A DNA stretch of 50,225 bases from Gammaproteobacteria bacterium (GTDB lineage: Bacteria > Pseudomonadota > Gammaproteobacteria > S012-40). Below the pieces are notes generated by a model. The model was not told where the DNA came from. It saw only the letters and a program-made list of their open reading frames with translations, and searched no databases. Below are positions 7,982-34,732 of this stretch, in pieces (the stretch's first letter is position 1; the number at the start of each line of letters is the position of its first letter). Where the stretch lies: the NCBI GenBank assembly GCA_027021445.1, contig JALUUH010000053.1:91853-142077 (forward strand), read 5' to 3'. Both the position numbers and the translations under genes were made by a program.

Positions 7982-8020
7982 CCTAGTTTAAGTACGTAAA
8001 ACAGTAAGTTAAAGTTTTTC

Positions 8021-8220
8021 GTACCCCTCTGTCCGCGTACCTGAGAGTTTAGAATGCGGTGTAAGCATTCCTCCCCTTCGGTGGATGCTTTCGAAGCATC
8101 TCTCTCCAGAGTCGACGTCACACTGAGCTGTGTGTTTCCTCTTATAGTCCCTTTTGCCTGAGCGATTCCGGGTAAGTTGCGCCTTCGGCCCCTCATTAAA
8201 GAGGTGTCTCCCAAAAGAAG
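8021..8220 (-). ncRNA. Tandem glycine riboswitch in the gcvT leader
   Basis: Reverse strand carries two aptamer-like halves: GGGAGACACC..CGCCGAAGG..CTCAGGCAAAAGGACT-like, then ACTCTGGAGAGA..CACCGAAGGGG..CTCAGGTA..GGACAGAGGGG, just 5' of gcvT. Confidence 0.93.
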
Positions 8221-8347
8221 TTATCGTCGAAAACGGAATCATACCGGGTGTGACGCTAAAATCCAAATTTTAAGCCGAAAAAGAAATTATGAGCAAACCA
8301 TCAGCGAGGTCATAAAAAACGACAACATTGATTCAGCTGAAATGATT

Positions 8348-22848: not shown

Positions 22849-23733
22849 TTAATTCGCTTGCAATGCCCTAATGCGTTCTTCAAGTGGTGGATGTGAACTA
22901 AACATTTTTTTCAAGCCAGTGCCTAGGCCACCGGAAATACCAAACGCAACAAGCTGATCAGGCATTGTAGACGGCTGACCTGATGCACGTTGTAGTGCTT
23001 GTAATGCTGAAATCATTTTTTCTTTTCCGGCGAGCTGAGCACCGCCTTCATCGGCTTTAAATTCACGTTTGCGGCTAAACCACATCACAATAGAGCTTGC
23101 CAGTACACCTAAGATGACTTCAGCGATGATTGCCGTTATCCAGAACGCCGGACCATGTCCGCTTTCATTTTTGAAAACGACTCTATCTACGATGTGCCCA
23201 ATGATCCGCGAAAGGAAAATGACAAAGGTATTCACCACACCTTGGATAAGTGCCAGGGTGATCATGTCGCCATTTGCGATATGGGCAACCTCGTGACCGA
23301 TGACTGCTTCTACTTCATCTGAGTTCATATTTTGCAATAAGCCGGTACTCACCGCAACGAGGGCTTTATTGCGCGAGGCTCCCGTGGCAAAAGCGTTAGG
23401 TTCTGGTGAGTCAAATACAGCGACTTCAGGCATTCCAATGCCTGCTTCTTGAGCATGTCTTTTGACGGTTTCAAACAGCCATTGCTCAGTTTGGTTGCTA
23501 GGCGTTTCAATCACCTGAGCGCCGGTCATGCGTTTCGCGCTCCATTTAGAGATAGCTAAGGAAATAAGCGAGCCGCCAAATCCAAATACCGCTGAAAATA
23601 TCAGCAATGAATTAAAGTCGATGCCAGAACCTTGCTCATCTAGAATTGAATCTACACCTAGGATTCGCAAAGAAATACTCAAGACCAAAACGATGGCTAG
23701 GTTGGTGACTAAAAACAGGAAAATCCGCTTCAT
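22849..23733 (-). CDS. htpX: Protease HtpX
   Basis: 294 aa; [14 protein letters not shown] zinc-protease motif. Confidence 0.96.
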
Positions 23734-23934
23734 TTTTACCTCAAAATTATAGAGTTAATAAGGAGTGTATGACCGATCAATTAGGAAATCGATTCATTTT
23801 TTTGTTAGCTACGCTCATTTCTAAATGGGGTTGTCTTATCGTTTTTCAAGTCTTGAAACATCTGATTCAGTGATAACTCCTTGCTAATAATAAAGATAGT
23901 AAAAGCTTGCTTATTTTACGCTAAAGTTTTATTG

Positions 23935-24026
23935 GCCGAGGACGTTATACAGATTACAGAACGGATCCCTCCTCCCTCAGTCCGTTCTGAATTCTTCGCC
24001 GGAGCATATTTGCTCCGGCTTTTTTG
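23935..24026 (+). ncRNA. Candidate small RNA with C/U-rich loop and intrinsic terminator
   Basis: CAGAACGGA-TCCCTCCTCCCTCAG-TCCGTTCTG hairpin (23957-23989), short linker, then GCCGGAGCA-tatt-TGCTCCGGC-TTTTTT (23998-24025). No + strand gene reads into it; 5' end approximate. Confidence 0.6.
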
Positions 24027-24066
24027 TGTATTTTGAGAATGGAAAATTGGGTTTATTTTCATTTTA

Positions 24067-25680
24067 TTATCTTTTAAATTTTACTTGTACTGTTCCTGAT
24101 TTATCCGCTTGTTCTTCCCAAAGTGCGATCGCTTTATCTTGGTAAATATACAAACTGCTGTTACTTATTTGCCCCCCGCTGGTAATTGTTGTTAGCCCAG
24201 ATAATCCCGTGCGTGCTGAATAGTTTTTGCTTAACAGAGCAAAACCAGAATTAGTCACTGGGTTCTGATATTGGCGCCAGGTAATCATTACGCTGTTATT
24301 GGCTTGGGTATATATTCTTGGCTGGTTTGCATCGTATACGTTGTCATTTTCCAATAATGATGCTGCCCCCCATGCATTAGCATTGGTGTCGTATACGCTA
24401 ATATAAATATTACTAACCTCGGTAGTGTTGTTCCTATCAAGGTCTTTAATATCTTCTTGTTCCCAGGTGGCAATAATACTTGTATTGGCGGCGTGAATAT
24501 CGGGATTTTGGGCTTGCAATTCACTGTTTTCAATAAGACCTGGGGTTCCCCAAGACATTGAATCAATATTAAATCTGCTTGCCCAGATACTTTCAGTACT
24601 GGTTCTGTCTTCTGAATCAGTTTGTTGCCAGATTAGCCACGCATTACCCGCACTATCAGAGCTAATACTCGGGTTTGTTGCATTACCCGAGTCGTTACTA
24701 ATGACGGTTGATGTTGATTCCCAGACACCCCCTGTATAACGTATTGCATAAATACGATCCAGCGAGAATCCCGCAAATCCATGATCGACGGACTGCCAAG
24801 TAATAAACGCATTGTTTAACCCATCAATACTCAGTTTGAATGATTCGACATCAATTATTGCGTCTGATATTCGCGCGGGTGAAACCCAAGTATTATCAGC
24901 GGCCATATAATGGCTCGCATAAAGAGTGTATATGGATGAGGCTGCATCCCATTGTCGCCAGACGGCTATCGCATTATTTGCGCTGTCTAATTCCAGGGTG
25001 ACATTCTTCGCTATTTCTGTGCTTAAATCGAGAACAATTGGAGTAGACCATGTTGCTGTTGATGTGCTGAAACGAGCAGTCCAAACACTGGTTATTACGG
25101 GCCCGCATTGGATTTGAGTGCTTTCATTATTGCAAGTGGTTGCGGAGTTTTCAGTAGCAAGATCAATTTGCTGCCACACAGCAATAGCGTCGCCATTGCT
25201 ATCCATTCTTACTTGCGGATCGATTGCCGGTAATATTCCGCTATTTTCTGAACTTGATATAAGGTCGTTAGCGCTATTGCCATCATTGTCGTTGATTTTT
25301 TTTATAGTATGAGTCTCAACCCATGTTCCATTGTGTAATGTGACGGGAGCAGTCCAGACTTTTGATTCAGCACGGTAGAAGCTGTACAGCAAGCTATTGC
25401 GTCCGAACTGATAAAACGTGGAAAATGCGTCGACTTCTGTGAGATTGATATTGGCAGGGTCTTCGCGCTCTTCATAAGCGGTTTGTTGCCATATCGCAAT
25501 GACATTCTGATTAGCGTCAATGGATCCAGTAGCCGAGCCAATGTCAGTTTTCTGACTTACACTAAATGTTTTTGTCCAAGCGTTATCGCCCACACCAAAG
25601 CTGCACGAGAAGGCAAAAAGACAGGCAATGATAAGGACTCCTAATCGGATAATTTTTTGCGGTGCAAAACACGTAGTCAT
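24067..25680 (-). CDS. Secreted/lipoprotein repeat protein of unknown function (beta-propeller-like)
   Basis: 537 aa; signal with CLFAFSC; repeated xAxxxW[QR]Q / WxTPxLI motifs. Confidence 0.6.
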   Translation of the reverse strand: MTTCFAPQKIIRLGVLIIACLFAFSCSFGVGDNAWTKTFSVSQKTDIGSATGSIDANQNVIAIWQQTAYEEREDPANINLTEVDAFSTFYQFGRNSLLYSFYRAESKVWTAPVTLHNGTWVETHTIKKINDNDGNSANDLISSSENSGILPAIDPQVRMDSNGDAIAVWQQIDLATENSATTCNNESTQIQCGPVITSVWTARFSTSTATWSTPIVLDLSTEIAKNVTLELDSANNAIAVWRQWDAASSIYTLYASHYMAADNTWVSPARISDAIIDVESFKLSIDGLNNAFITWQSVDHGFAGFSLDRIYAIRYTGGVWESTSTVISNDSGNATNPSISSDSAGNAWLIWQQTDSEDRTSTESIWASRFNIDSMSWGTPGLIENSELQAQNPDIHAANTSIIATWEQEDIKDLDRNNTTEVSNIYISVYDTNANAWGAASLLENDNVYDANQPRIYTQANNSVMITWRQYQNPVTNSGFALLSKNYSARTGLSGLTTITSGGQISNSSLYIYQDKAIALWEEQADKSGTVQVKFKR

Positions 25681-34381: not shown

Positions 34382-34395
34382 TAACCTTTTCTATA

Positions 34396-34732
34396 TACGA
34401 GGCGTAGGCTGGAGGCGAGATGGCACAAGACATCGAAGCCATGTGATCTAACGGCCACCGTAAATGATGCAGCAGCGCAGTGACAGTTCATGCTCTTATC
34501 TGGGGAGATCTGCTTAACGAGCGGTCGGTAAACAACCAGTGAGGAGCCTGTGCAGCTTAACAATGCCATGCCCGACCGGGTTAAGGGTTGTTAGCGCAAA
34601 ATCAGAAACCCGCATTGGAGTCAGTTGGAGCTAATCGGCCAGCTTGCTTTAAACATCTTTGGGAAACGCCCTGTGCGGAGCCGCATGCAGGTGTTGTGGG
34701 AGCTGGAGGTTAGAGACCTCCGGCTACCCGAT
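34396..34732 (+). mobile_element. ORF-less group II intron relic retaining domain V/VI-like 3' end
   Basis: D5-like ACGCCCTGTGCGGAGCCGCATGCAGGTG (about 34665-34698); D6-like AGCTGGAGGT-tagag-ACCTCCGGCT-A-CCCGAT (34701-34732) with a branch-point-type A 7 nt from the end. No reverse transcriptase ORF; 5' limit approximate. Confidence 0.75.

Follow-up and report, generated by a model that had tools for sequence, protein, structure and literature searches.

Features of the locus

The window analysed here is a stretch of 50,225 nt from a gammaproteobacterial contig (JALUUH010000053.1). It carries a short plus-strand element, a hairpin with a C/U-rich loop followed by an intrinsic terminator, lying between two minus-strand genes (Table 1).

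Table 1. Coordinates of features in and around the element (positions are those of the window).
Feature	Position	Strand	Evidence or details
htpX (M48 peptidase), divergent neighbour	22849..23733	−	Pfam PF01435
Sigma-32-like htpX promoter, CTTGAAA...CCCCATTT	23823..23850	−	by eye against the consensus
Sigma-28 (FliA)-type promoter	23922..23948	+	−35 TAAAGTTT 23922–23929, 11 nt spacer, −10 GACGTTAT 23941–23948
Predicted sRNA transcript	23954..24025	+	about 72 nt; start (±3 nt) deduced from where the promoter lies; covariance-model matches, covariation
Hairpin 1, stem CAGAACGGAT/GTCCGTTCTG	23957..23989	+	sequence, fold, two-sided pair changes
C/U-rich loop CCCUCCUCCCUCA with anti-SD motif CCUCCUCCC	23967..23979	+	sequence; core CC-TCCC near-invariant in structural alignment
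Intrinsic terminator, stem GCCGGAGCA/TGCTCCGGC + T6	23998..24025	+	terminator scan; two-sided pair changes
537-aa ORF	24067..25680	−	no Pfam family over cut-off
Fructosamine kinase	from about 25819	+	next plus-strand gene

The arms of hairpin 1 are perfectly matched (CAGAACGGA, 23957–23965; TCCGTTCTG, 23981–23989), with the loop TCCCTCCTCCCTCAG (23966–23980) between them, and a T-G closing pair lengthens the stem to 10 pairs. The anti-Shine-Dalgarno (anti-SD) motif CCUCCUCCC (23968–23976) is unpaired in the computed fold. The terminator hairpin GCCGGAGCAtattTGCTCCGGC (23998–24019) is followed by TTTTTT (24020–24025) on the plus strand only, and was the one match in a terminator scan of the region (0.3 expected). 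Folding of 23900–24035 gave −41.1 kcal/mol, compared with −26.4 ± 3.1 in dinucleotide shuffles (z −4.7; none of 200 as good), and predicts a double hairpin with a CU-rich unpaired region. These features agree with the earlier note on 23935–24026, which had described a perfect 9-bp stem, a C/U-rich loop and a strong terminator with its U-tract on the plus strand only, flanked by minus-strand genes on both sides and with the nearest downstream plus-strand gene near 25.8 kb. A scan of the element's region found no sigma-70 promoter, and no further copies of the element were found in the window's own genome. A 51-aa ORF with a TTG start crosses the element but was rejected as coding, because the loops of homologues differ in length and so shift the frame.

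Since the minus strand carries a sigma-32-like promoter for htpX, the gene and the sRNA look like separately controlled units; comparable CTTGAA...CCC-TAT boxes were seen by eye upstream of htpX in several relatives. The 537-aa ORF, whose product is secreted or lipoprotein-like, sits on the side of the sRNA where other families have parC.

Conservation and covariation

Of the 13 genomes in the window's family, 12 gave a blastn match to the element, and of the 43 from other families none did. A covariance model built from 12 copies recovered the thirteenth (in G002), making the family total 13/13, together with homologues in further families; the absence from G002 was an artefact of blastn sensitivity. 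A second covariance model placed the sRNA in 18 of 369 sampled Gammaproteobacteria genomes, representing eight families (E < 1e-8). The next-best matches (E-values of 4e-8 to 8e-7) were C-rich hairpins of families f86 (G220) and f85 (G096, G219), which were excluded as lookalikes: they have no sigma-28 box and no nearby parC or htpX, and their genomes have no FliA match. Beyond these, nothing scored better than about 1e-4, and matches at that level or weaker were taken as chance terminators and left out of the counts.

Both helices covary among 27 homologues. The structural alignment contains 56 double-change cells, against 12.4 ± 2.9 in shuffled and 2–10 in slid controls, and two-sided changes at 13 of 18 pairs (6/10 in hairpin 1 and 7/8 in the terminator), counts that are favoured because the alignment was fitted to the structure. 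Without any structural input, alignment A2 recovers the first hairpin and a portion of the terminator, including four pairs with two-sided changes. Hardly any variation is seen in the loop core, CC-UCCC, of the structural alignment, and the stem sequence of hairpin 1 is also strongly conserved. The loop of the window copy is four bases shorter than in most family relatives, with the arms intact. On this comparative evidence the element is a real small RNA gene, in line with the earlier proposal of a small RNA with an anti-SD-like loop, for which absence of the structure from relatives had been named as counter-evidence.

The locus is conserved as well. Twelve of the 13 family genomes have the sRNA and htpX in divergent orientation, and four other families (f29, f94, f133 and f134) have the sRNA between parC and htpX; in f120 it adjoins htpX, and parC is some 3.7 kb away, while in f66 and f111 it is beside parC only. 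In several families parC, a converging gene, ends at or near the terminator.

A sigma-28-type promoter

The sigma-28 (FliA) promoter consensus is TAAAGTTT-N11-GCCGATAA. The sequence just upstream of hairpin 1, missed by the earlier note and partly outside the interval it covered, matches this consensus at 13 of 16 positions, and none of 100 shuffles was as good. In 11 of the 12 family copies, the best promoter match within 150 nt occupies the equivalent position (−33 to −37 relative to the stem); in the remaining copy, L003, a TCAAG/CGATA-type box is seen there by eye. All 15 further homologues (14 from other families and that of G002) have the box at −32 to −39, with 11–15 of 16 positions matching, giving a sigma-28-type box in register in 26 of 27 homologues in all. 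Because the covariance model contains no promoter sequence, the box supports homology and function independently of it. Within the window's family, 6–9 nt separate the end of the promoter from the stem; transcription is therefore expected to begin close to the stem and to yield a compact, two-hairpin RNA of about 72 nt. Gene, structure, loop conservation, promoter sequence and locus are all established by comparison between genomes.

A FliA protein over cut-off is encoded by all 18 sRNA-bearing genomes of the class sample, compared with 214/369 overall. Counted by family, the co-occurrence is 8/8 (chance 0.58^8, about 0.01), and at this level the association is only suggestive. In the other seven families a single FliA gene is found in a flhF-fleN-fliA-cheYZ flagellar locus or beside fleN, usually with flhF, cheY or cheZ. 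The label 'flagellar' is uncertain in the home family because 12 of its 13 genomes have two FliA-type (FliA_WhiG) proteins over cut-off, one of them flagellar. In the home-family genomes read closely, the second gene adjoins a gene for an S30AE-CSD (HPF-like) protein, as at L035 (G000:C130:60500-71500) and L037, where this neighbour is a ribosome-hibernation-like S30AE protein with a cold-shock domain; the neighbourhood in G000 also includes DUF1249, PrkA and DUF444. Possibly, this second FliA is a paralogue that has been co-opted into a stress regulon. The window's own genome, 67% complete, yielded the non-flagellar factor only, although it has five flagellin matches.

Comparison with known small RNAs

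No Rfam family exceeded its gathering threshold for the element, and the earlier note had recognised no family; alpha-r14 (RF02344) scored 20.7 bits (threshold 58.8), RF02278 18.3 (threshold 50) and anti-hemB (RF02837) 21.3 (threshold 49.5). The earlier label 'orphan' should be qualified: the RNA has a conserved parC/htpX locus and a conserved sigma-28-type promoter of its own. Cuckoo RNAs reportedly carry CCUCCUCCC as an anti-SD motif in hairpin loops on variable stems. The exact motif is likewise found in a hairpin loop, with variable stems, in alpha-r14/NfeR1, and NfeR1 uses it to silence ntrB, acting at the translation initiation region of that gene (PMC10746234). The alpha-r14 RNAs are alphaproteobacterial, have three motif hairpins and are LsrB/NtrC-controlled, whereas the window RNA has one motif hairpin plus a terminator, and a sigma-28 box. 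The nearest architecture is that of the betaproteobacterial 'toxic small RNA' RF02278, double hairpins of 57–92 nt with CU-rich unpaired stretches (PMC5688073); they are reported from Burkholderia, in several copies per genome, with no mention of sigma-28 control. A C-rich loop is also shared with Xanthomonas sX13, whose loops repress, with no need for Hfq, mRNAs that have G-rich motifs close to their start codon; unlike the window RNA, it has three stem-loops, lies downstream of polA, is found only in Xanthomonadaceae and is not reported as sigma-28-dependent (PMC3771888). In its proposed mode of action the window RNA is like these anti-SD-loop sRNAs (alpha-r14/NfeR1, the betaproteobacterial double hairpins and sX13), and is a member of none by Rfam score, sX13 being set apart by description only.

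Known sigma-28-dependent sRNAs are few, UTR-derived in Enterobacteriaceae and short in Campylobacter. E. coli UhpU, MotR, FliX and FlgO are conserved in some Enterobacteriaceae (PMC10578931); the window RNA would likewise be an sRNA of a gammaproteobacterial flagellar sigma regulon, but lies between genes, under a promoter of its own, and has an anti-SD loop. For Campylobacter CjNC1 and CjNC4 the predicted partners are ribosome-binding sites of sigma-54 flagellar genes (PMC4626219); these RNAs are similar in being short, in their sigma-28-type control and in their predicted mode of pairing, as judged for the window RNA from its sequence; they differ in their 44-nt scale, unrelated sequence and predicted targeting of specific flagellar genes. 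The present gene would add to this small group. It occupies one locus in several of at least eight gammaproteobacterial families, and, if the assignment is true, the flagellar sigma factor would have a longer-standing and wider sRNA output than described. For this family without an Rfam entry, it provides a concrete gene that is simple to test and a covariance model ready for use. No published report of the gene was found in the open-access literature searched.

Predicted function and targets

The element probably encodes a free-standing, sigma-28-dependent, trans-acting sRNA of about 72 nt that represses translation via its anti-SD loop. Transcription of 23954–24025 (plus strand) would be driven by its own promoter when a FliA-type sigma factor is active, and would end at the intrinsic terminator; if flagellar FliA reads the promoter, the timing would be that of late flagellar assembly. 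Hairpin 1, at the extreme 5′ end, would present CCUCCUCCC as a single-stranded mimic of the 16S anti-SD sequence, and the loop may pair with the G-rich ribosome-binding sites of several mRNAs, blocking translation initiation. We infer transcription, start site, sigma dependence, pairing and repression, as well as any feedback on flagellar or lifestyle genes, from these features, and pairing in particular because the loop carries the silencing motif of NfeR1 (PMC10746234).

Target prediction from the loop, suggested by the earlier note, was carried out on the flagellar clusters of five genomes, with gene names assigned from sequence by eye. High-ranking candidates appeared in some lineages (fliA, fliE and fleR in f111; fliE and fleN in f94; fleR and fliD in f1), but no conserved target emerged among these flagellar genes, the rankings of orthologues disagreeing between genomes, with fleR, fliA, fliD and fleN high in some lineages only. 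The fliE leaders of 23 genomes with the sRNA did not show significantly higher complementarity than those of 27 genomes without it (p 0.15), and fliE was rejected as a conserved target; its ribosome-binding site in the window's own genome is AAGGAAA. Flagellar feedback of the kind proposed for CjNC1/CjNC4 (PMC4626219) is plausible but unsupported here, because of the discordant rankings and the negative fliE comparison. A broader role is conceivable, though doubtful: an ancient gammaproteobacterial sRNA, fixed beside parC/htpX, might tie FliA activity to general translation control, acting, once flagellar assembly is past the FliA checkpoint, as an anti-SD decoy that throttles many messages with G-rich SD sequences instead of a few flagellar genes.

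Alternative explanations

Near-perfect palindromic arms between two genes, with parC converging on the terminator and stopping there or close by in several families, could represent, instead of an RNA gene, an inverted-repeat operator in the DNA that serves htpX, together with a bidirectional terminator serving the converging gene. This is very improbable given that the loop is conserved, the stems stay paired through two-sided changes, the arms are kept around a shortened loop in the window, and the U-tract shares its strand with the sigma-28 box, in register. If there is an RNA, its loop might titrate not mRNAs but, for example, an RNA-binding protein or a different G-rich RNA, a reading that would suit both the lack of a conserved mRNA target among the flagellar genes examined and the strong conservation of the stem sequence along with the loop. 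It is nevertheless improbable: where CCUCCUCCC loops have been characterised in an sRNA, their site of action is a translation initiation region (PMC10746234), and the GGA required by CsrA is buried within the stem in the computed fold.

A somewhat less remote, though still unlikely, alternative concerns the regulon, the same sRNA being driven here by the second FliA-type factor and belonging to a stationary-phase or ribosome-hibernation response instead of flagellar assembly. The paired FliA_WhiG proteins of twelve family genomes, and the non-flagellar factor standing alone in the incomplete genome of the window, are consistent with this; against it, the same box is present in the other seven families, whose single FliA is in a flagellar locus or beside fleN. 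An anti-SD sRNA repressing translation under sigma-28 control is the preferred reading.

Lookalikes and other RNA elements

The lookalike locus in G220 (L077, G220:C24:79000-86500) contains three C-rich-loop hairpin-terminators close together, sharing the upstream box TGATTTAGCAGTAGCCTATC or a close variant, near a gene that by eye resembles phaR; the genome gave no match to FliA, flagellin or FliE, and the elements would form a separate anti-SD sRNA group. In f85, L180 and L181 (G219 and G096) each consist of a C-rich-loop hairpin and a terminator, without a sigma-28 box and in genomes without a FliA match. The recurrent sequence CTCCTCCAYCCTCCTTTGGTGG followed by a terminator, with no Rfam match, was seen at L066, L183 and L189, in three different families. 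The window itself also carries tandem glycine riboswitch aptamers (8019–8223, minus strand) and, by Rfam match, a fragment of group II intron D1–D4 (34395–34465, plus strand).
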